A DNA stretch of 64,000 nt from Anaerolineales bacterium (GTDB lineage: Bacteria; Chloroflexota; Anaerolineae; Anaerolineales; UBA11579), in contig JAJTXV010000001.1 in assembly GCA_021463845.1 (NCBI GenBank), positions 582,174 through 646,173 on the forward strand, read 5' to 3'. The notes beneath the pieces are model-generated. The model saw nothing but the letters and a program-made list of their open reading frames with translations. It was not told the DNA's origin and searched no databases. Of this stretch, positions 5,217 to 48,250 are shown in pieces. How positions within the stretch are numbered: the first letter of the stretch is position 1; each line of letters opens with the position of its first letter. The position numbers and the translations under genes are program-made.

Positions 5217-6557
5217 TTAGCGTTTGGTGTAGCGCACGGTTACGGGGGTGGGCTTGCTGGAGCCGCCGCGGTTGACGCCGATGCTTTCGTAGGGGGTGAC
5301 GAGCTCAAGCTCGTACTTGCGGAAAAGCAGGGCCAGAATGATCGACATTTCAGTGCGGGCAAAGTTCATGCCGGTGCATTTGTGCAGGCCGCCACCGAAG
5401 GTGATGAGATCGAAGCCGCGGCCCTCGCCGCGCTCGGTGAAGCGAGCCGGGTCGTAGGCGTGTGGGTCAGCGAAGTATTCGGGAATGAAGTGGGCCGCCG
5501 CGGTGGAGGTCATCACGAACCAGCCGGCGGGGATGCGGTAGCCGTCCAGCGTGATGTCTTCCTGCACTTCGCGGATCAGGGTCTCGGCCGAGGGGCGCAG
5601 GCGCCCGGTTTCCTGGACGGCGGCGTTGATCTGAGCGATCTCACGCATGTGGACATGGTTCACTTCGGCGGAGTCACCCAGCACGCGCTGCGCTTCTTCT
5701 TGCACACGGGCACTGTGCTGCGCATCGTTGATGAGGTGAATGATTGACCAAGCGGCCTGGCCGGCGGTGGTCTCGTGCCCGGCAAACATGAGGGCGGCGA
5801 AGAAGTTGGCCACGATCTCGTCAGGCAGCGGCTCGCCCGAGCCGTCCGGCTGCTCTAGCAGATACTGGAAGCCGTCGTCGACGGGCTGCCGGCGGCGCTC
5901 CTCGATCAAGGGTTGCAGGATGGCGCGGATCTTCTCTTTGGCCTGATCGCGGCGCTTGAACTTGGGCAGCGGCAGCTTGTAGAGCAGGGGGTCCAGCGAT
6001 TCGCTGAGTGCATCGTATTGCGCCCAGAAGCCAGCAGCTTCCAGGCGGCGGTGGACCTCGTCGCCCAGGAAGCAGCGGCCAGCGACTTCTTTGACGATGT
6101 GGGTCATCTCGTTGGTGAGCTCAATTTCGCCACTGTCGCCCAGGCGCTCCAGCCATTCGTTGACCACCTGGCTCATCACCGGCAAGTACTTGGCCATCTG
6201 GTCACGCGTGAACAGGCTGTGCAGGATGGGGCGGTGCAGCTTATAGGTTTCGTGGGAACCGAGGAAGGCAATGCGCCCGAACATGGCCGCCAGGAACTGG
6301 TAGGGCTTCTCCATGCTGAGCTCTTTGTCAGTGCTCTTGAAAAAGAAGGATTGCTCCTGCGGGCCGACCAGGATCGCCATGGGTTGGCCGAGGAGCTTGA
6401 TGCCGAAGACGTTGCCGTGCTTGCTGTAGCCACGACGGAAGAAGGCTTCCTGGTCGCGGTAGAACTCGATCGCATGGCCAATGTAGGGCAGCCCGCCGCT
6501 GAGCATGGGTGGGGTAGGTAGTTTAGAAGGGGTCGAGACAGTTTCCGTATTGATCAT
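5217..6557 (-). CDS. Cytochrome P450
   Basis: Heme-thiolate monooxygenase of 446 residues. The I-helix oxygen-activation motif MFAGHETTAG, the K-helix ExxR (ETGR), and the heme-binding FGGGLHKCTGMNFA with its Cys ligand (near residue 395) are all present. The N-terminus lacks a membrane anchor, as in soluble bacterial P450s. The overall style (GGLPYIGHAIEFYRDQEAFF, then MFAGHETTAG) recalls CYP51 or CYP120-like enzymes, which act on sterols, retinoids or fatty acids; the substrate here cannot be read from sequence. A GTGACA/16 bp/TATACT promoter with the -10 ending 6 nt before the ATG suggests a leaderless mRNA. No ferredoxin partner is adjacent. Confidence 0.9.
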   Translation of the reverse strand: MINTETVSTPSKLPTPPMLSGGLPYIGHAIEFYRDQEAFFRRGYSKHGNVFGIKLLGQPMAILVGPQEQSFFFKSTDKELSMEKPYQFLAAMFGRIAFLGSHETYKLHRPILHSLFTRDQMAKYLPVMSQVVNEWLERLGDSGEIELTNEMTHIVKEVAGRCFLGDEVHRRLEAAGFWAQYDALSESLDPLLYKLPLPKFKRRDQAKEKIRAILQPLIEERRRQPVDDGFQYLLEQPDGSGEPLPDEIVANFFAALMFAGHETTAGQAAWSIIHLINDAQHSARVQEEAQRVLGDSAEVNHVHMREIAQINAAVQETGRLRPSAETLIREVQEDITLDGYRIPAGWFVMTSTAAAHFIPEYFADPHAYDPARFTERGEGRGFDLITFGGGLHKCTGMNFARTEMSIILALLFRKYELELVTPYESIGVNRGGSSKPTPVTVRYTKR

Positions 6558-6603
6558 GAGCCCAGTATACGCCCTTTGTGAACATTGTCACTTTAACATT
6601 GGG

Positions 6604-7032
6604 TTAAGGGCTTGCCCAAAGTTTGGCCAGGCGTCCTAGCACATCGTTCCAGCCTTGGCGCAGGTTGGCGCCATCACCAGCTTGCGGCGATAGATAGTGG
6701 GTTAAGGCCAGAGTAGTGCCGTTGTTGGCGGGCTCAAAGTGGAGGTCAACAGCTTCTTCGACCTCACTCACGCCATCATTCATCCAATTCCATGTGAGAC
6801 GGATGTGGCTGGGCGGCTGCAGGGTAACGAACTGGCCGCGCACGCCGATGCCGGCCATCTGCGAGCGGATCTCGTAGACGCCGCCTGCACGCGCATCGAG
6901 GGCATAGGTCGTATCAGGGATATGCGGCCACCACCATTGGGCCAGTAGGTCAGCCTGCGTGAATGCGTCAAAGACTTGCTGGCTGGTAGCACCGGGGATG
7001 CTTTGGGTCAGCTCGAGCGTCTGGCCGCTCAC
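6604..7032 (-). CDS. SRPBCC (AHSA1/Aha1-type START-fold) domain protein
   Basis: A 142-residue single-domain protein of the SRPBCC ligand-binding superfamily. Signs are an N-terminal beta strand with IPGATSQQVFDAFTQADLLAQWWWP, the GGVYEI turn, the RLTWNWMNDG strand typical of the AHSA1 branch, and a C-terminal amphipathic helix (GWNDVLGRLAKLW). These proteins bind hydrophobic ligands; the ligand is unknown. Its start overlaps the end of the exonuclease III gene by 4 bp, so it is probably translated as the second gene of that operon. Family assignment is good; role unknown. Confidence 0.8.
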   Translation of the reverse strand: MSGQTLELTQSIPGATSQQVFDAFTQADLLAQWWWPHIPDTTYALDARAGGVYEIRSQMAGIGVRGQFVTLQPPSHIRLTWNWMNDGVSEVEEAVDLHFEPANNGTTLALTHYLSPQAGDGANLRQGWNDVLGRLAKLWASP

Positions 7033-7796
7033 TTGAGTTCCAGCATCACGGGGCAGTGATCGGAGCCAGTGACATCGCTAAAGATCGTGATGTCCTTGAC
7101 CTTCTTTAGCAGCGGCTTGGACACTAGAAAGTAATCCAGACGCCAGCCGATGTTATTAAGGCGCGCCGAGGGGAAGCGCGCCGTCCACCAGCTGAACTGT
7201 TGCTTGTCAGGGTAGAACTCGCGGAAGGTGTCCACCAGGCCGGCGTCAAAGTACAGGCCGAGGGCGGCGCGCTCTTCCGGCATGAAGCCGGAGGTGCGCT
7301 GGTTGTCCTTGGGGCGGGCCAGGTCGATCTCGTTGAAGGCCGTGTTGAAGTCGCCGGTCAGGATCAGATTCTCGCCGGCCTTGTGCAGCTTCTTGATGTG
7401 CTTCAGCAACGCCGAGTAGAACTCGAGCTTGAACTTGACGCGCTCCATGCCGGTGGTGCCGCTGGGGAAGTACACGTTGAGCAGGGTGAAATCGTCAAAG
7501 CGGGTTTGGATGACGCGGCCCTCGATGTCGAACTTGGGCACGCCGAAGCCAATGATGTCCTCTTTGCTTTTCTTCGCCACCATTGTGGCGACGCCGCTGT
7601 AGCCGGGGCGCTCGGCTGGGTTCCAGGCTACGGTGTAGCCTTTGAAAGTTTCCATCTGGGCATCGGTGAGCTGCTCAGGCTTGCTCTTGATCTCCTGCAG
7701 GCAGATGACGTCTGGCTTCTGCTTCAGGATCCACTTCCAGGCATCTTTTTTGAGGTGGGCACGTAGCCCGTTTACGTTCCAGCTGATGAATTTCAT
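7029..7796 (-). CDS. xth: Exodeoxyribonuclease III (AP endonuclease)
   Basis: DNA repair enzyme of the exonuclease III/APE1 family: cleaves at abasic sites and degrades 3' ends. The 255-residue protein shows the full motif set: ISWNVNGLRA with the Asn ligand, LQEIKS with the metal-binding Glu, the central GDFN catalytic Asp/Asn, LDYFLVS, and the terminal SDHCPV histidine. Length is normal. A TACAAT box ends 7 nt before the ATG on this strand, again suggesting a leaderless message, and points away from hisS across a short gap that contains a heptad repeat. The SRPBCC gene is coupled downstream. Confidence 0.92.
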   Translation of the reverse strand: MKFISWNVNGLRAHLKKDAWKWILKQKPDVICLQEIKSKPEQLTDAQMETFKGYTVAWNPAERPGYSGVATMVAKKSKEDIIGFGVPKFDIEGRVIQTRFDDFTLLNVYFPSGTTGMERVKFKLEFYSALLKHIKKLHKAGENLILTGDFNTAFNEIDLARPKDNQRTSGFMPEERAALGLYFDAGLVDTFREFYPDKQQFSWWTARFPSARLNNIGWRLDYFLVSKPLLKKVKDITIFSDVTGSDHCPVMLELK

Positions 7797-7825
7797 AGGG
7801 GAAATTGTAATGGGTTTGGCAAGTA

Positions 7826-7867
7826 GAGAATAGAGATTGGAGATTCTGAAATCTCTATTCTCAAATC
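7826..7867. repeat. Inverted array of degenerate heptamers (element A)
   Basis: Six 7-nt units: GAGAATA, GAGATTG, GAGATTC, then TGAAATC, TCTATTC, TCAAATC. The second trio is the same kind of unit on the opposite strand. The outer 13 bases (7826-7838 and 7850-7862) are perfect inverted repeats. It sits between divergent xth and hisS. Architecture matches element B at 24518-24586. Confidence 0.7.
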
Positions 7868-7898
7868 TTGTTCTTTCGTTCTCCTGGTCTTATATAAT
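7868..7898 (+). promoter_or_regulatory. hisS promoter, leaderless type
   Basis: A perfect TATAAT at 7893-7898 ends 6 nt before the hisS ATG (7905), placing the expected transcription start at the start codon. The best -35 is TTGTTC at 7868-7873 with a long 19-bp spacer. Confidence 0.7.
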
Positions 7899-7904
7899 GC
7901 TCAC

Positions 7905-9170
7905 ATGCCCAACATCATTCAGGCTGTACGCGGTACTCAGGACTATTACCCGGAAGAGATGGCGGTGCGCTCATGGCTGTATGCCAAGATGCGCCAGGTG
8001 TCTGAGTCCTTTGGGTATCAGGAATACGACGGCCCGTTCCTGGAGCGCTTCGAGCTGTATGCAGCCAAGTCGGGCGCCGAGCTGGTGGAAAAGCAGTCGT
8101 ATGTCTTCGAAGACCGCGGCGGCGAGCGCATCACCCTGCGCCCGGAACTGACGCCTACACTGGCGCGCATGGTGGCCACCCGCCAGCGCCAGCTGACCTA
8201 CCCGCTGCGCTGGTGGTCCTTCGGGCCGTTCTGGCGCTACGAGAAGCCGCAGAAGGGCCGCACGCGTGAGTTCTTCCAGTGGAACATTGACATGGTGGGC
8301 GAAGATTCGCCTGAGGCGGATGCTGAGCTGGCCACGATCGCGGCCACTTTCCTGAAGACCATCGGCCTCCAAGCCAACGAGGCCCAAATTCTGGTCAACA
8401 ACCGCCAGCTGATGCAGGCCGAGCTGGAAGCGCTGGGGATCGCCGGCGCGCTGCGCAGCGAGGTCTTCGGCCTGATCGACCGCAAAGACAAGCTGAGCGC
8501 GGAGGCCTGGCAGGCGCGCGGCAAGGAGCTGGGGCTGGATGCTGCTCAGATGCTGGGTGTTGAGACGCTAATTGGCAATCAGGAGCTGTGGCAAAAGTCA
8601 GAGTCGCTGCAGCGGTTCTTCAAGGCTGTGGAAGCGCAGGGCGTGGCTGACTACGTGCGCTATGCGCCGCACATCATCCGTGGCCTGGACTATTACACCG
8701 GCACCGTCTTTGAGGCCTGGGACACCGCTGGCGAGTTCCGTGCAATCTTTGGCGGCGGGCGCTACAACGACCTGGTGAACGCGGTAGGCGGCGAACCCGT
8801 GCCGGCGGTTGGCTTCGCGGTGGGCAATGTGGTCATCAGCCTGCTGCTGCAGGCGCTAGGCCACGCGCCGGATGTGAGCGGGCGCGCCCCGATCTACGTC
8901 ACCGTGTTTGACGCGGACGGCTTGGCGGGCTCTCTCTCGCTGGCGGCTGAACTGCGGGCCGCCGGGCTGCAGGTGACCAGTCAACTGCAGCCGGACAAGC
9001 TGCAGAAGCAGTTCAAGCAGGCGGACCGCAGCGGGGCGCGGGTGGTGCTGGTGCTCGGGCCGGATGAGGTTGCCCAGAACGCGGTGAGCGTCAAGGACCT
9101 GCGCACTGGCGAGCAGCGCAACCTGCCGCGGGCAGGCTTGGCTGCAGAGCTTGCTAAGTTGCTGGCCTAA
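7905..9170 (+). CDS. hisS: Histidine-tRNA ligase
   Basis: Class II aminoacyl-tRNA synthetase that charges tRNA-His. The 421-residue protein starts with IQAVRGTQDYYPEE (the RG-TQD motif), has motif 2 around FGPFWRYEKPQKGRTREFFQWN, the histidine-specific RGLDYYTGTVFE, motif 3 (PAVGFAVGNVVI), and a C-terminal anticodon-binding domain (PIYVTVFD to the end). The start is fixed by a TATAAT 6 nt upstream and by the family N-terminus. The tRNA-His gene lies 42 bp downstream on the same strand, so enzyme and substrate are neighbours and might be co-transcribed. Confidence 0.94.
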   Translation: MPNIIQAVRGTQDYYPEEMAVRSWLYAKMRQVSESFGYQEYDGPFLERFELYAAKSGAELVEKQSYVFEDRGGERITLRPELTPTLARMVATRQRQLTYPLRWWSFGPFWRYEKPQKGRTREFFQWNIDMVGEDSPEADAELATIAATFLKTIGLQANEAQILVNNRQLMQAELEALGIAGALRSEVFGLIDRKDKLSAEAWQARGKELGLDAAQMLGVETLIGNQELWQKSESLQRFFKAVEAQGVADYVRYAPHIIRGLDYYTGTVFEAWDTAGEFRAIFGGGRYNDLVNAVGGEPVPAVGFAVGNVVISLLLQALGHAPDVSGRAPIYVTVFDADGLAGSLSLAAELRAAGLQVTSQLQPDKLQKQFKQADRSGARVVLVLGPDEVAQNAVSVKDLRTGEQRNLPRAGLAAELAKLLA

Positions 9171-38169: not shown

Positions 38170-39198
38170 TTGACAAATAACAGAGTTACCAGCCACGACG
38201 TTGCTCAAGCTGCGGGTGTCTCCCGAGCCACTGTTTCTGTTGTCTTAAACAATCTGCCCGGAATTGCGATCAGTGATGCGACCCGCCAGCGGGTTCTGGA
38301 TGTCGCAAAGCAGCTCAATTACTCCCCTAACTCTGCCGGCCGCAAGCTGGCCAGCGGAAAATCAAACACCATTGGCCTGGTGCTGCACCAGTCACCCGAG
38401 CAAGTGTACGCAGATGCCTTTCTTACGCGAGTTATGTTCGGCATAGAGCAAGCCGCCATGAAGCACGGCTACCATGTTCTCCTAAAGCAAGTCGACCCGG
38501 CTGACCCGACTGGCTACCGCCATCTGGTGAGCGAGAACCATGTTGACGGGATCATCCTGTCTGGCCCGCGACAGGATGATCCCGAACTTCTGCGCCTAGT
38601 GGAAGAAGGCGTACACATTATGCTGCTGGGCCAGATACCTGACAGCACGATCCCATTCGTTGACATTGACGCCACGCGCAGCGCCGAGCAGGCGGTACGC
38701 CATCTGGTTCAGCTTGGGCACACCCGCATCGCCATCATCACCAACGCCAGTTTGAGCTACACCTCAGCCCAGCAGCGCCTTATCGGCTACCAGAACGCAC
38801 TCGAGCAGGCCGGCCTTACTTTGGAGCCGGCTTACGTGAAAGAAGGCAACTACACGCCCGGCAGCGGCCTGGCTGCCATGAACCAACTGCTGGCTCTGCC
38901 CCAGCCGCCGACAGCCGTGTTCGTAGCCAGCGATGTAGTGGCGCTGGGCGCCATGCTGGCGGTCAAGAATGCCGGCCTGCACATTCCGCAAGACATGGCC
39001 TTCGTAGGTTTCGATGACATTGCGCTGGCCGAGTTCTACGACCCACCGCTGACCACTGTGCGCCTGCCCGGCTACAAGCTGGGGATGATGGCCTGTGAAC
39101 GTTTGCTGCAGCTCCTGAAATGGGGCAAGCTGAGCCAACCTGGCTATTTATTCGAAACTGATCTCGTCGTTCGTTCATCAAGCGTAACAACGCCATAA
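38170..39198 (+). CDS. LacI family transcriptional regulator
   Basis: 342 residues. The N-terminal helix-turn-helix and hinge (VTSHDVAQAAGVSRATVSVVLNNLPGIAISDATRQRVLDVAKQLNYSPNSAGRKLASG) bind an operator; the rest is a periplasmic-binding-protein-like sensor domain (NTIGLVLHQ to VFVASDVVALGAMLAVKNAGLHIPQDMAFVGFDDIALAEFYDPPLTTV). Start is a TTG at 38170. Placed directly before the alpha-glucoside ABC genes, it probably controls them in response to a sugar such as trehalose or maltose (inference). A hairpin at about 39260-39280 separates it from the binding-protein gene. Confidence 0.9.
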   Translation: MTNNRVTSHDVAQAAGVSRATVSVVLNNLPGIAISDATRQRVLDVAKQLNYSPNSAGRKLASGKSNTIGLVLHQSPEQVYADAFLTRVMFGIEQAAMKHGYHVLLKQVDPADPTGYRHLVSENHVDGIILSGPRQDDPELLRLVEEGVHIMLLGQIPDSTIPFVDIDATRSAEQAVRHLVQLGHTRIAIITNASLSYTSAQQRLIGYQNALEQAGLTLEPAYVKEGNYTPGSGLAAMNQLLALPQPPTAVFVASDVVALGAMLAVKNAGLHIPQDMAFVGFDDIALAEFYDPPLTTVRLPGYKLGMMACERLLQLLKWGKLSQPGYLFETDLVVRSSSVTTP

Positions 39199-39316: not shown

Positions 39317-40648
39317 ATGTCCAAGCACTTCAAGTTTTTTCTAGCTCTGACCGTGTTCAGCCTGATCCTGGCTGCCTGCGGCGGCGGTGCGCCCGCCCCC
39401 ACGGCTGCGCCTGCTGAACCGACGACCGCCCCCTCCACTGATGCGCCGGCCGAGCCGGCAGACGACATGTGCTACGGTGCAGCGCCTGGTGACGAAGTCA
39501 CCATCCTGTACCAGTGGTCTGGCGCCGAGGAAGAAAGCTTCCACGCTGCGATTGCCCCCATCGTGGAGGCCTGTGGCCTGACCATCGTGCCTGAGTCCTC
39601 CCGTGACCAGGCCCTGTTGGAAACCCGCATCGAATCCGGTGACGCCTGGAACCTGGTGTTCTGGCCCACCGTTGGCCCGATCGGCTCCTATGGCGACCAG
39701 CTGGTCGCCCTGGACAGCCTGGGCGCCGACGCTGGCAACTACGCTCCGGCCTGGATGGCCACCTCGGGTGGCAGCTGGCTGGGCGTAGCCGTCAAGGCCG
39801 ACCCCAAGTCCATCGTTTGGTACAGCCCGGTCAACTTTGATGCGTTTGGCTACAGCGTGCCCACCACCTGGGATGACTTTGTGGCTCTGGCTGACCAGAT
39901 GGTCGCCGACGGCAATGTTCCCTTCGCGATGGGCTTTGAGAGCGGTGACGCCACCGGCTGGACCGCCTCTGACTTCATTCAGGACATTCTGCTGTCCACT
40001 CAGGGCAGCGCGTATGTGAATGGCATCCTGGATGGTTCGGTTGCCTACAACGATGCGGGTGTGGCTGGCGCGTACGAGATCTACAGCGGCTGGGCCACTG
40101 ACCCGGCTTACGCCGTGGGCGGCGCCGAGGGTTCCCTGAGCACCGCGTTCAGCGATGCGATCCTGCAACCGTTCAGCGACCCGCCGCAGGCCATGATGGT
40201 CAAGCAGTCCGGCTTTGCGGGCGGCGCGATCGCGGCGCAGTACCCCGAGCTTGAGTTCGGTACGGACTTCAGCTTCTTCCACTTCCCCGGCGCCGATGGC
40301 GTGCAGGGCGGTGCTGACTGGATGATGGCCTTTGCCGACACGCCGGCGGTACGCGCGATCGTGGCGTACCTGACCAGCGCTGAGGGTGGCGCCCACTGGG
40401 CCTCCACCGGCTTCGGTCTTTCCCCCAACAGCGGCTCGGCCGGCAACTATGCTGACCCGATCAACGCTGCTTTGGCTGACGTGCTGGCCGGCGCCAGCGC
40501 TGCCACGCCTGACATCGGCGACTCCATCCAGCCCAGCTTCGGCTCGGCCGAGTGGCGCGCGATCGTGGACGTGGTGAGCGGCGCCGCGAGCATTGACGCC
40601 GCACTGGCTGGCGCAGCTGAAGCACAGGCTGCCGACCAGGGCAACTAG
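39317..40648 (+). CDS. Sugar ABC transporter substrate-binding lipoprotein (alpha-glucoside type)
   Basis: 443 residues. A lipoprotein signal peptide (KHFKFFLALTVFSLILAAC) with lipobox LAAC is followed by a Pro/Ala/Thr linker and a family 1-type solute-binding fold (VTILYQWSGAEEESFHAAIAPIVEACGLTI; PTTWDDFVALADQM). It presents sugar to the two permeases encoded downstream; the AglE-like style suggests an alpha-glucoside. AAGGAG sits about 9 nt before the ATG. A strong hairpin without T-run follows, likely protecting this mRNA so that the binding protein is made in excess. No transport ATPase is nearby. Confidence 0.9.
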   Translation: MSKHFKFFLALTVFSLILAACGGGAPAPTAAPAEPTTAPSTDAPAEPADDMCYGAAPGDEVTILYQWSGAEEESFHAAIAPIVEACGLTIVPESSRDQALLETRIESGDAWNLVFWPTVGPIGSYGDQLVALDSLGADAGNYAPAWMATSGGSWLGVAVKADPKSIVWYSPVNFDAFGYSVPTTWDDFVALADQMVADGNVPFAMGFESGDATGWTASDFIQDILLSTQGSAYVNGILDGSVAYNDAGVAGAYEIYSGWATDPAYAVGGAEGSLSTAFSDAILQPFSDPPQAMMVKQSGFAGGAIAAQYPELEFGTDFSFFHFPGADGVQGGADWMMAFADTPAVRAIVAYLTSAEGGAHWASTGFGLSPNSGSAGNYADPINAALADVLAGASAATPDIGDSIQPSFGSAEWRAIVDVVSGAASIDAALAGAAEAQAADQGN

Positions 40649-40740: not shown

Positions 40741-41700
40741 GTGAGCGAGCGCATTCCGAACATCATGCGGCAAGGCCGCATGGCGCCATGGCTTTACCTG
40801 GCGCCTGCACTCATCATCATTCTGGTGTACATCGTCTACCCAGCCTTCAACACGTTTCATCTAAGCTTGCTGGATAAGGATTCGCTCAACTGGGCATCCA
40901 GCGCATGTGTGCAAGGCCGCCCCTGCTGGGGCATTTTCGAGAACTATCGCTATGCACTGACCAGCGAGCTGGACACCACCAGCGCGGCCACGATCTGGCG
41001 CACCTTCTGGATCTCATCCTTTGGCAATAATCTCAAATGGATCCTGGGCCTGGTCACCGGCGCGGTAGCGCTTGGTTTGCTGATGGCGGTGCTGTCAGAC
41101 AAGGTCAAGTACGAATCGCTGGCGAAGTCGGTCATCTTTCTGCCGATGGCGATCTCGTTCGTGGGCGCCGGCGTGATCTGGAAGTTTGTGTATCACTTTG
41201 GCACAGACAATACGCAGATCGGTTTGCTGAATGCGATCGTGCGCTGGATAGGCGGAGAGCCTGTGTCGTTCATGACGCGCATCCCGCTCAACACCTTCAT
41301 GCTGATCGTCGTGGGCATCTGGATGTGGGCGGGTTTCTGCATGGTCATCCTCTCGGCGGCGATCAAGAGCGTGCCGTCAGAGCTGCTCGAGGCGGCCCGC
41401 ATGGACGGAGCAACGGAGTGGACCGCGTTCTGGAAGATCACCGTGCCCGTGATCCTGCCCACCATTGTGGTGGTGATCACGACGATGGTCATCAACACCC
41501 TCAAGATCTTCGACATCGTATTCGTGATGACGGGCGGCAACTACAGCACGGATGTAATTGCCAACCGCATGTATGCGGAAATGTACGTCAATCAGCAGAC
41601 CGGGCGCGGCACGGCGGTAGCCATGGTGCTGGTGCTGGCGATCATTCCCTTTATGTATCTCAACATCAAACGCTTTAGAGAACAGGAGGCTATGCGCTAG
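40741..41700 (+). CDS. Sugar ABC transporter permease 1 (AglF/MalF-like)
   Basis: 319 residues, about six transmembrane helices with a cytoplasmic EAA loop (ELLEAARMDGATEWTAFWKITVPVILPT) that docks the ATPase. Helix 1 is APWLYLAPALIIILVYIVYPAFNTFHLS. The first outer loop carries a pair of Cys (SSACVQGRPCW) that could form a disulfide. I use the GTG at 40741, preceded by GGAGAGGAG; the frame opening at 40696 lacks a ribosome site. Forms the channel with permease 2, whose gene starts 16 bp downstream. Confidence 0.9.
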   Translation: MSERIPNIMRQGRMAPWLYLAPALIIILVYIVYPAFNTFHLSLLDKDSLNWASSACVQGRPCWGIFENYRYALTSELDTTSAATIWRTFWISSFGNNLKWILGLVTGAVALGLLMAVLSDKVKYESLAKSVIFLPMAISFVGAGVIWKFVYHFGTDNTQIGLLNAIVRWIGGEPVSFMTRIPLNTFMLIVVGIWMWAGFCMVILSAAIKSVPSELLEAARMDGATEWTAFWKITVPVILPTIVVVITTMVINTLKIFDIVFVMTGGNYSTDVIANRMYAEMYVNQQTGRGTAVAMVLVLAIIPFMYLNIKRFREQEAMR

Positions 41701-41715: not shown

Positions 41716-42903
41716 ATGAGCGAACGCATGAAACGCTTCCTGTCGAGCCTGCCCTTGCACGTGATCGTGATCGGGATGGTGGTGCTATGGCTGCTGCCCA
41801 CGCTGGGCCTGCTGGTCACCTCGTTCCGCCCGGTGCAGGATGCTAATACCAGCGGCTGGTGGACCGCCTTCTCGGCGCCGAAAGCCGGCGCCGAGTACAC
41901 GGAGTTCTGCGCCGGCTGCCACGGGCCGGAGGGCGACGCCGTGCCGAGCGCGGACTTCAGCAATCCGGAATACGTAGCCCTGTTCCGCCGCTCCGTGCAG
42001 CTGGCGGGGACCTTCAACAACACGCTGCCGGATGGCAGCGTGCATGTGCCGGAGGATCAGCGCCCGAATGCGCAGCAGCTGGCCGACATTCTGACCCAGA
42101 TACGCGGCTTTGCCGGCGTGGAAGAGCGGCCGCGCTTCACCCTGAGCAACTATGTGGACGCGTTGGTGGGTTACCGCGGCCGCACGAGCTATGCCGAAGA
42201 CTGCGCTGCAGGCACCCAGTCCACTGACCTGACCTGTGACTTCGCCACTGATCTGGGCAACAGCCGCGGCATGGCGCGCGCTTTCGTCAACACGCTCATC
42301 GTCACGATCCCGGCCACCATCCTGCCGCTGATCTTTGCGGCGCTGGCGGCTTACGCCTTCTCGTGGCTGCATTTCCCGGGGCGCATGTGGCTGTTCGCGC
42401 TGCTGGTAGGCTTGCAGATCGTGCCGCTGCAGATGACCCTGGTGCCCATCTCCAAGCTGTATCAGCAGCTGGGGCTCAGCAGCACCTTCCTGGGCGTGTG
42501 GCTGTTCCACACGGGCTTCGGCTTGCCGTACGCCATCTTCCTGATGCGCAACTTCATCGGCTCGTTACCGCGCGACCTGTTCGAGTCAGCCTATCTGGAC
42601 GGCGCCAGCCACTGGACCGCCTTCACGCGCCTGGCGCTGCCGCTGTCACTGCCGGCGCTGGCCTCGCTGGCCATCTTCCAGTTCCTGTGGGTATGGAATG
42701 ACTTGCTGGTGGCGCTGGTGTTCCTCTCCGGCCGCCAACCGGTGCTGACCTACCAGATCAACGGCCTGGTGCAATCACTGGGCGGCGGGTGGCATCTGCT
42801 GACCGCGTCGGCGTTCCTCTCCATGCTGCTGCCGATGATCGTGTTCTTCGGCTTCCAGCGCTTCTTCGTGCGCGGCCTGCTGGCCGGCGCGGTGAAAGGC
42901 TAA
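41716..42903 (+). CDS. Sugar ABC transporter permease 2 (AglG-like) with c-type cytochrome-like insertion
   Basis: 395 residues. Helix 1 (residues 13-36), then a long extracytoplasmic segment, then five more helices from about residue 190 with a normal EAA loop ([26 protein letters not shown]). The outer segment, residues about 57-135, reads [20 protein letters not shown] and ends [14 protein letters not shown]: a CxxCH heme-attachment motif (C65, C68, H69) at the start and a terminal helix like mono-heme class I cytochromes c. It has no Met, so His110 would be the only obvious distal ligand. AglG relatives carry a large non-heme domain here. Base composition of the insert matches its surroundings. 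Heme binding is inferred. Confidence 0.85.
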
Positions 42904-42913
42904 GTCAACACAA

Positions 42914-42951
42914 AATAGCGGGGCGCAACCGCATGGTTGCGCCCCGCTATT
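42914..42951. terminator. Terminator after ABC permease genes
   Basis: Perfect 17-bp stem AATAGCGGGGCGCAACC / GGTTGCGCCCCGCTATT around GCAT. The A/T flanks are short, so termination may be partial and allow some read-through into treS. Confidence 0.75.
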
Positions 42952-42982
42952 GTTTGCCAACAACATTGCGTACAATCTGACC

Positions 42983-44611
42983 ATGCAAAAGACACCCCTC
43001 TGGTACAAAGACGCCATTTTCTACGAGCTCTACATCCGAGCATTCAATGACAGCGATGGCGATGGCCACGGCGACATCCGTGGAGTAATTGAAAAGCTGG
43101 ATTATCTGCAAGACCTGGGCATCAACTGCATTTGGCTGCTGCCCATGTTCCCCTCCCCACTTAAGGATGATGGCTACGATGTGGCCGACTTCTATAATAT
43201 TCACCCTGACTACGGCACGCTGCACGATTTTAAAGAGCTAGTCGACGAAGCCCACAAGCGCAGCATCCGCGTAATTGCGGACCTGGTGCTGAATCACACC
43301 TCTGACCAGCATCCTTGGTTTCAGGAGGCGCGCAAGGGGCCAGACAACCCCAAGCACGACTTCTATGTGTGGAGCGATACGCAGGAGAAGTATCAGGACG
43401 CGCGCATCATCTTTTTGGACACAGAAGATTCCAACTGGAGCTGGGACGAGGAAGCCAAGCGCTACTTTTGGCATCGCTTCTATTCTTCACAGCCGGATCT
43501 GAACTACGACAATCCCGAAGTCCAGGAAGCCATGCTGCATGTGGCCAAGTTCTGGCTCGACCTGGGCATCGATGGATTCCGCTGCGACGCGATCCCCTAT
43601 TTGATCGAGCGCGAGGGCACCAATTGCGAGAACCTGCCTGAGACCCATCTGTACCTGAAGAAGCTGCGCCGCTTCGTTGACGAGCATGCCGCGGACAGCA
43701 TCCTGTTGTCTGAGGCGAACCAGTGGCCCGAAGATGTGCGCGAATACTTTGGCGATGGCGATGAGATGCACATGGCTTTTCATTTCCCGGTCATGCCAAG
43801 GCTCTTTATGGCTATGCGCAAGGAAGACACCACACCCATCCGCGAGATCATTGAGCGCACGCCAGAGATCCCTCAGAATGCACAGTGGTGTACCTTCCTG
43901 CGCAACCATGATGAACTCACGCTGGAGATGGTGACCGAAGAGGAACGCCAGTGGATGTGGGAGCAGTACGCTCCAGAGCCGCGCATGCGCCAGAACCTCG
44001 GCATTCGCCGCCGGTTGGCTCCCCTGCTGGACAATGACTTCAACAAGATCGTGCTGGCCAATTCGCTGCTGTTCACGCTGCCCGGCTCCCCCATCGTGTA
44101 CTACGGGGACGAGATCGGCATGGGCGATAACATCTGGCTCAAAGACCGCGATGGGGTACGTACGCCGATGCAGTGGAATGCCAGCCCGCAGGCAGGTTTT
44201 AGCTCAAACGCGGAACCCTATTCGCCGGTGAACAATGAGGTGCCGTATGATCCGGCGCACGTGAATGTAGAAGACCAGATGCGAGACCTGGCTTCGTTGT
44301 ACTACGTCACCAAGAACATGATCGCGGTGCGCAAAACCCACCGCGCCTTCGGCTGGGGCACGTTTGAGTGGGCCAATAGCTCGCACCCCACGCAGGTGGC
44401 TGCCTACTACCGCCGCCATGAAGGCGAAGAGCTGCTGATCCTGAACAATCTGAGTGGCGAGAGTATTGACCTATGGGTTGAGATCCCTGAGCGCCAGCTA
44501 TTCTTCCCCCCACCCAACCTGTTCACCGGCCGCGCCACGGGCGAGCTGGTGGATGGCCGCTTGCATGTGAAGCTGGCCAGCCACGGCTACGAGTGGCTTA
44601 AGCTGACCTAA
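42983..44611 (+). CDS. treS: Trehalose synthase (maltose alpha-D-glucosyltransferase), GH13
   Basis: Interconverts maltose and trehalose in the cytoplasm. 542 residues starting [22 protein letters not shown]13 motifs are complete: [18 protein letters not shown] with the nucleophile D202, [11 protein letters not shown] with the acid/base E244, and [12 protein letters not shown] with D310. [12 protein letters not shown] and [10 protein letters not shown] are trademarks of TreS over other amylases. No fused maltokinase domain is present. TACAAT (42971-42976) ends 6 nt before this ATG, so I reject an upstream frame start. It fits the alpha-glucoside importer upstream. Its 3' end overlaps the convergent arsC by 14 bp. 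Confidence 0.9.
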
Positions 44612-45842: not shown

Positions 45843-47060
45843 CTACAGACTCCTGCGATAACGATTACGCAAAATAATGGCAGTGGCGTTCAGTGTGAGC
45901 AACAGGCCCAGCAGCACCAGGCTTGCGCCGCCGGCCAGATTGCGGAACACAGATTGCGGCCGCGCCGTCCACTGGTAGATCTGGATGGGCAGCGTTGTGA
46001 AATTGGAGAACGGGCCTTCGGGATCCACCTGGATGAAGGTAGACGCGCCGATCACGACCAGCGGCGCAGTCTCGCCAATGGCACGCGAGATGGCCAGGAT
46101 GGTTCCAGTCATAATGCCTGAGATGGCGTTGGGCAGCACGTGATGCCAGACCGTCTCCCAGCGAGTGGCGCCCAGGCCAAAGCTGGCCTGGCGCAGCGAG
46201 CTGGGCACGGCCTTGATAGCTTCCTGCGCGTTGATGATGATAAGCGGCAGCACCAGCATGCCCAGCGTCAAGCCTGCAGACAAGATGGTGCGCCCGTTGG
46301 ATGTGGTCGGGTCGCTGGCGCCAAAGGCCACGCCACTGGTGAAGTGCCCCAGGGCGCGTACAAAGATGGCCAGGCCCAGAATGCCATAGATGATGGACGG
46401 CACGCCAGCCAGGTTGGTGATGTTGGTTTGGATGATGCGGTTGATGAGGTTATCGGGCGCATACTCCTGCAGATACACGGCCGCGGCCACCCCAACCGGG
46501 AAGGCGAACAACACGGCGATCCCAATGGTCCACAGCGAACCGAGCACCGCAGTGCGCACGCCGGCGATCTCCGGATAGCTGGACTGTGGCGCGCGCAGGA
46601 AATGGCTGTTCAGCCAGCTGCGGAACTCCAGGCGGGCATTGGGGAAGTCCTGGGCAGCCGTTTGACGAATGGCGTCACGATTGGTGAGCGTCTCGTACAG
46701 CGACCATTGTGCCACGAACTTGGGCTCAACCACGCGCTCCAGGATCAGGTCGTAGACCTCGCCTGCCGAGCGCTCGGCAAAGGGTTTGTCAAACTCGTAG
46801 CGGGCAAACAAGCCAGCCGAGATGTGCGCTTGCAAAACCTGGATGAGCGTATCTTTGTCCTGCTCTTCGAGCGGAACGCCATTCACCGCCAAATCCTGGG
46901 GTGCGATGGTGTCTTCGATGGCTACATAGCCAAATGAGCCGTTGAGGATATTGAAGAGCAGCGCAGTTAGCGCAACAATCCCCGTCAGCAAGGCCACCTG
47001 AAACACCACCAGCCAGACCCGCCCCGTGCGGTGACGCTGCTGCAGGTTCGAGGCGCTCAC
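45843..47060 (-). CDS. pstA: Phosphate ABC transporter permease PstA, enlarged
   Basis: 405 residues, about 110 longer than typical PstA. Helix 1 lies near residues 15-38; the extra length is an extracytoplasmic region (about 40-170) between it and the transporter core, which starts [31 protein letters not shown]. The core is canonical: [18 protein letters not shown] and the cytoplasmic loop [33 protein letters not shown]. Starts with GTG overlapping the pstC stop (GTGA). Works with PstC, PstB and PstS. Confidence 0.92.
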
Positions 47061-48250
47061 TCGTACACCTCGCGGAAGCGGCGCACAATGTACTGGCTGA
47101 AGATGTTGAGCGCCAGGGTCATCACAAACAGCATGAGGCCAATGGCGAAGATGCTGTTGTAGTCCAGCGAGTCGTAGCTAAGATCACCGCCGCTGATGCG
47201 TACGATATGCCCAGTCATCGTTTCGGCGGCCTGGAACGGGTTGAACGTGAAGGCTGGCCCGGCGCCAGCGGCCAGAGCCACCACCATGGTCTCGCCCACG
47301 GCGCGGGAGATGGCCAGGATGGCGGCGGCCGCAATGCCTGAGAAGGCCGCCGGCAGCACGATGCGCACCGCGGTCTCCAACCGCGTGGCGCCCAGGCCAT
47401 AGGCCGCCTCGCGCAGCGAGCGCGGCACGGCGTTGAGGGCATCTTCGCTGATGGTGCTGACCAGGGGCAGGATCAGGATGCCGATGACAATGCCGGCGGA
47501 GGCGGTGTTGTAGATCTGCACCACATTCTGGCCAAAAATGGTTCGCAACAATGGCGTCATGAAGGTGAGCGCAAAGTAGCCGTATACCACTGTGGGCACG
47601 CCGGCCAGGATCTCAAGAATGGGCTTAAGCGTATTGCGCGCTCGTGGGGAGGCGTATTCGCTCAGATAGATGGCGGTTGCCAACCCTAGCGGCAGGGCTA
47701 CCAGGATGGCGATGCCAGAGACCATCAGCGTGGCGTTCAGCAATGGCAGCACGCCAAATTGCCCGGCGTGCGGCGCCCAGGTTGTGCCGGTGAAGAATTC
47801 AGCCAGGCTGGGGTCTACGCCTTTATGCAATACGGCGCCGGCGGCATGTGAAGCGGGCGCCGTATCCTGCACGCCGCGCTCCACGACGTAGATGCTGTCT
47901 TCGATAGCGATAAGGTGCAATACTTCCTGGTCGAGACGCAGAGTGTCACCCTCGCGCAAGGGGGTGCCGATCGGGCCAACCTCGATGCGGGTATCAGCTG
48001 GGGCAATGTCTGCAACAATGGGCTTGTTGGTCAGCTGCCATTGTGTACGCCCAAAAAAGAGCAGGGATTCTTTGCCCAGCTCATAAATAATTCCAGCGGT
48101 TACGAAAATGGAGAGCAAGCCGCAAACGAACAGCAGGCTCTGGATCACGAGCTCGCGCAGGCGCGGCTTGCGCTTGAGGGAAACATGGTCAGAGGTGCGA
48201 GTGGGAGCCATGGAGCTTGGGGTCGCTGCAGCTTGAAAATGGAATTTCAT
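47057..48250 (-). CDS. pstC: Phosphate ABC transporter permease PstC, enlarged
   Basis: 397 residues; helix 1 [23 protein letters not shown], then an extracytoplasmic insertion (about residues 75-150) absent from short PstC proteins, then the normal core ([79 protein letters not shown]). The ATG at 48250 overlaps a TATAAT (48254-48249); if that is a true -10 box, its transcript would start downstream and use the ATG at 48211, giving 384 residues. From pstS read-through, either start works. A hairpin separates it from pstS. Confidence 0.9.

Follow-up and report, generated by a model that had tools for sequence, protein, structure and literature searches.

Bacterial ABC importers of the MalFGK2 type, with permeases such as MalG, UgpE, GlcU, and AglG (BPD_transp_1), are the transporters closest to the locus described here. 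They share with it the operon order, a binding lipoprotein, two permeases, the permease domain, and the EAA loop. The locus can also be compared to the class I cytochromes c, such as CcoP of the cbb3 oxidase, cytochrome c6, and KustC0563; the CxxCH motif, the fold, and the C-terminal helix are common to these proteins and to a segment of one of the permeases. A further likeness is to CydDC of E. coli, an ABC transporter with a link to heme that has been studied as a transporter of either heme or thiols (PMC10374445, PMC4785604).

A search of the literature (open PMC papers) brought up no ABC sugar importer described as containing a cytochrome c domain. The protein encoded at 41716-42903 of the window, i.e., of the 64,000 nucleotides of Anaerolineales DNA that were analyzed, very probably combines the two, having a heme c domain, with predicted heme binding, inside a sugar importer.

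The Importer and its Operon

The permease gene belongs to an operon with the order LacI-family regulator, binding protein, permease, permease, and trehalose synthase, and this order is conserved among the relatives inspected (Table 1). Pfam places BPD_transp_1 at residues 206-387 of the protein (5.8e-14), and the top NCBIfam matches are GlcU, UgpE, and MalG, each scoring under its curated cut-off. With BPD_transp_1 and the EAA loop, and with a binding protein, a second permease, and a sugar enzyme encoded alongside, the protein has the make-up of a MalG-type permease. The model of the full-length permease was made from 15 input sequences and is of low confidence (pLDDT 52).

Table 1. Features of the importer operon and of the cytochrome-containing permease. 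Positions are those of the window.
Feature	Position	Strand	Basis or remarks
LacI-family regulator	38170..39198	+	Equivalent place in relatives
Sugar-binding lipoprotein of the operon	39317..40648	+	Same-place relatives SBP_bac_1/SBP_bac_8, 56-61% identical
MalF-like partner permease, same operon	40747..41700	+	BPD_transp_1 4e-20; order conserved in relatives
Sugar ABC transporter permease of the MalG/AglG type, 395 aa, predicted cytochrome c domain built in	41716..42903	+	Intact ORF
TM1, approximately residues 15-37, ahead of the outer loop	41758..41826	+	Hydrophobic stretch; full-length model (low confidence) has helix 14-36
Predicted class I cytochrome c domain, approximately residues 55-137	41878..42126	+	Loop model; Cytochrome_CBB3 in 64/66 members
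CAGCH heme c attachment motif, residues 65-69	41908..41922	+	C65, C68, H69, and G70 each 66/66
His110, probable distal axial heme ligand	42043..42045	+	64/66 conserved
NY helix (FTLxNY), residues 143-151, conserved, opening the standard outer segment of the permease	42142..42168	+	Loop-model helix 99-107
Clade-specific hairpin with Cys163 and Cys174	42202..42237	+	Both Cys 66/66; kept in domain-less relatives too
EAA loop region	42583..42642	+	Conserved across 15 orthologues
Trehalose synthase (maltose alpha-D-glucosyltransferase)	42950..44611	+	TIGR02456 812.6 bits vs. cut-off 678

The binding lipoprotein itself gave no Pfam matches at E<=1. In one relative (L049:1270-3825) the binding protein is 851 amino acids long and consists of two tandem fused copies, each about 60% identical to the single copy of the window. 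The outer loop of the partner permease contains a pair of cysteines (SSACVQGRPCWG) that is kept in several relatives and possibly forms a disulfide.

Since a trehalose synthase gene adjoins the transporter genes, the putative substrate is of the trehalose/maltose type. The downstream enzyme varies in some relatives, being trehalose synthase, another GH13 enzyme, or GH65. In L108, a relative that does not have the cytochrome domain, a HAD hydrolase resembling beta-phosphoglucomutase and a GH65 enzyme (1578-2312 and 5921-8248) replace trehalose synthase, which suggests a switch to phosphorolysis. No redox enzyme was found in the operon of the window or in the operons of the relatives inspected. 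The minus strand of the window encodes two phosphate-type (PstA/PstC-like) permeases at 45843-48250, apparently with long extra stretches in the first outer loop.

A Cytochrome c Domain in the First Outer Loop

TM1 and the NY helix are separated by a loop of roughly 100 residues, which houses the cytochrome segment. An initial annotation of the locus placed a cytochrome-like domain at 41884-42120, and this was borne out, the extent now being 41878-42126. The same annotation took the module to have replaced the outer domain found in AglG. The presence of a cytochrome module in the loop holds, but the replacement does not; the module is read as an insertion between TM1 and the NY helix, where relatives of the subfamily have other loops. 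Within the NY helix, N145 is found in 65 of the 66 distinct loops, and Y146 and D148 in all of them. The two cysteines of the hairpin that follows it possibly form a disulfide.

When 15 full-length orthologues are compared, C65, C68, H69, G70, G73, G107, H110, and P117 are invariant. The distal Met usual in class I cytochromes is absent from the window segment, which, as had been pointed out in the initial annotation, contains no Met at all. The candidate it named in place of Met, His110, is conserved in nearly all of the loops (Table 1), and each of the two loops without it has a His two alignment columns upstream. The residue following His110 varies, being M in 38, L in 20, V in four, and I in three of the 66 distinct loops. 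In one relative (L096:5001-5432) a GQMP sequence, like that of ordinary Met-ligated cytochromes, is found near the distal-ligand site in place of the conserved His.

Using Pfam with a threshold of E<=0.01, Cytochrome_CBB3 was the more frequent match among the members (best 1.1e-8), while Cytochrom_C was found in 41 of 66; the member from the window, taken alone, falls under the Pfam cytochrome cut-offs. A profile search against the PDB sequences had CcoP cytochrome subunits on top (3.4e-6).

A model of the loop built from the 66 sequences reached a pLDDT of 90.3. The best Foldseek match, 5mxy, had a probability of 1.00, yet a weak E-value (0.15), and the top VIA-align score was modest (7o38, with Z 7.4 and an rmsd of 2.6 over 73 residues). 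The matches listed by Foldseek and by VIA-align are without exception cytochromes or chains containing cytochrome c, aligned over model residues 8-93, with the solved cytochromes c covering 11-93; as the VIA-align rows were taken from Foldseek's own list, the lack of other folds among them carries no weight. The VIA-align rows include the His/DOPA-ligated cytochrome 5xdh and a Met-to-His mutant (M58H) of cytochrome c6, 4h0k. A His as distal ligand is thus compatible with the class I fold, of which a Met ligand is no strict requirement. Sequence profiles, predicted fold, and motif agree, and the prediction that the loop adopts a class I cytochrome c fold is supported.

Occurrence and History of the Domain

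The 66 distinct orthologous loops with CxxCH all come from Chloroflexota (Anaerolineae), and two of the carriers are cultured isolates, Thermanaerothrix daxensis GNS-1 (L067) and Levilinea saccharolytica KIBI-1 (L097). Another 14 genomes of the order share this architecture. A scan of genome contigs gave dozens of loci with the insertion, every match being from Chloroflexota, with search patterns made from the conserved flanking stretches, which distant fusions would escape. Among 400 genomes sampled evenly across the phylum there were 11 matches, all from one order; 10 of these have the full domain, and one (G343) matches only the part following the domain. Misassembly or a chance CxxCH can be rejected as the source of the segment, since many independent genomes share the insertion, and the initial annotation, which had argued against misassembly, was right in this: the CxxCH is invariant in the 14 other genomes of the order and in the two isolates.

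At 16 of the genome contig loci this permease is encoded with no cytochrome segment. A permease tree was computed without the loop residues and with a domain-less outgroup. The domain-bearing and domain-less sequences form one clade (100/98) separate from the outgroup, and the domain-less ones are nested within it in two places. The simplest reading is one gain of the domain followed by two losses. The lineages that have lost it retain, nearly end to end, the binding protein (52-53% identical to that of the window) and the first permease (64-66%), which indicates that the domain is probably unnecessary for basic transport. Other related permeases of the order have at the same site either a different loop lacking CxxCH (L025-L034) or a short loop (L021-L024 and L035).

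Pairwise dN/dS values within the genus are 0.057-0.113 for the cytochrome segment and 0.004-0.046 for the membrane part. The segment is clearly under purifying selection, although this is looser than in the membrane part.

Genes for Heme Attachment and Respiration

CcmF and CcmC are present in the genome of the window, which also encodes further cytochromes c, COX1, and an adjoining COX2 fused to cytochrome c. Its locus L042 contains an apparently complete System I (Ccm) operon with ccmA, B, C, E, F, G, and H and one cytochrome c gene interspersed. Structure prediction, profile searches, orthologues, and maturation genes were named in the initial annotation as the places to look for support, and each of these came out in favor of a cytochrome: the loop model has a class I fold and cytochrome matches, Cytochrome_CBB3 and CcoP are the profiles recovered, the same fusion with its CxxCH occurs in numerous orthologues, and the genome has a complete Ccm operon.

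Ccm is present in 60 of 62 domain-bearing genomes vs. nine of 16 domain-less relatives (Fisher p 1.2e-4, treating the genomes as independent). One of the domain-bearing genomes without Ccm, L051, is apparently identical to G003, a MAG with 72% completeness. In a comparison of 42 genomes, COX1 was found in 16 of the 26 domain-bearing ones vs. two of the 16 domain-less. An independent-pairs test of domain loss against Ccm contains two events only, which is not enough for significance; as the tree permits just two independent comparisons, the association of Ccm and COX1 with the domain is suggestive only. The domain is tracked more closely by Ccm than by COX1, in line with heme c chemistry and not with oxygen respiration as such. 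Ten of the 26 domain-bearing genomes are without COX1, and a signal perceived by the domain can thus not be oxygen respiration alone.

Possible Roles of the Predicted Heme

Being conserved across a large bacterial clade, the domain is probably useful. We tentatively prefer to see it as a redox-responsive regulator of sugar uptake, with heme binding, ligand pair, and role all being predicted. The tie between sugar uptake and redox state drawn in the initial annotation is likewise an inference. Following export, the Ccm system would attach heme to Cys65 and Cys68, His69 would be the proximal ligand and His110 probably the distal one, giving a His/His instead of a His/Met pair. The heme might then equilibrate with the extracytoplasmic cytochrome or respiratory pool, and its redox state could be passed on through the loop leading into TM2, on the side at which the binding protein docks. 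Sugar uptake would thereby be tuned to respiratory demand. A more specific proposal, which we make with greater reserve, is that the covalent heme senses the redox state outside the cytoplasm and directly gates uptake in the membrane, bypassing transcription. A regulatory role is favored by the probable dispensability of the domain for basic transport together with an operon that has no redox enzyme, and it is favored over a part in docking since the relatives without the domain retain the remaining transporter. Electron transfer, docking or structure, and gas sensing rank behind it, in that order.

The domain could instead wire the surroundings of the importer to the respiratory chain, for example by docking to a respiratory complex or to an outer sugar-oxidizing enzyme. 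The predicted class I fold would suit this, as would electron-transfer domains such as CcoP being the nearest sequence relatives, and the genome has respiratory cytochromes and COX1. However, the operons of the relatives inspected contain no redox enzyme, and the neighboring gene encodes trehalose synthase, another GH13 enzyme, or GH65 and no dehydrogenase, so that this role is rather unlikely. It is also unlikely that the fold mainly contacts the binding protein or stabilizes the loop, the heme being structural. Such a function would agree with a location in the outer loop beside the binding-protein face and with the unrelated loops that occupy the equivalent place in related permeases, but the lineages that have lost the domain retain the orthologous binding protein and first permease, and heme chemistry is indicated by the strictness with which CxxCH and His110 are conserved and by Ccm being present almost throughout.

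Gas sensing, where NO, CO, or another ligand would displace the distal His and thereby gate uptake, is improbable. A His is found at the distal position in 64 of 66 loops, and anaerobic lineages and COX1-less genomes carry the domain, but the matches are to electron-transfer or enzyme cytochrome c domains and give no specific pointer to gas sensing. That the loop is a cytochrome remnant no longer binding heme, or an assembly artifact, is highly improbable in view of the invariant motif, the purifying selection, and the occurrence in more than 60 genomes and in isolates, although the window member by itself falls under the Pfam cut-offs.

Relation to Known Transporters and Cytochromes

Compared to the MalFGK2-type importers, the permease regarded here as subject to redox regulation has an additional cytochrome c domain in its first outer loop, and it stays below the curated cut-offs for the known subunits. 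Judged by motif, profile, and fold, the inserted part would be a class I cytochrome c that departs from the class in the usual Met ligand only. Class I cytochromes c are free or part of redox enzymes, whereas the present domain sits within a transporter, and the distal Met is replaced by His. To our knowledge CydDC represents an unrelated type of transporter and has no domain for attachment of c-type heme; in the present importer the heme would be covalently bound, and the cargo a sugar.

For a large group of Chloroflexota, the conserved combination suggests that sugar uptake is linked to the respiratory redox state. Should the heme control transport, nutrient uptake would be connected to the state of respiration directly, in the transporter, and in a way that can be tested; and if the heme does so by gating, carbon intake would be coupled to respiration without a transcription step.
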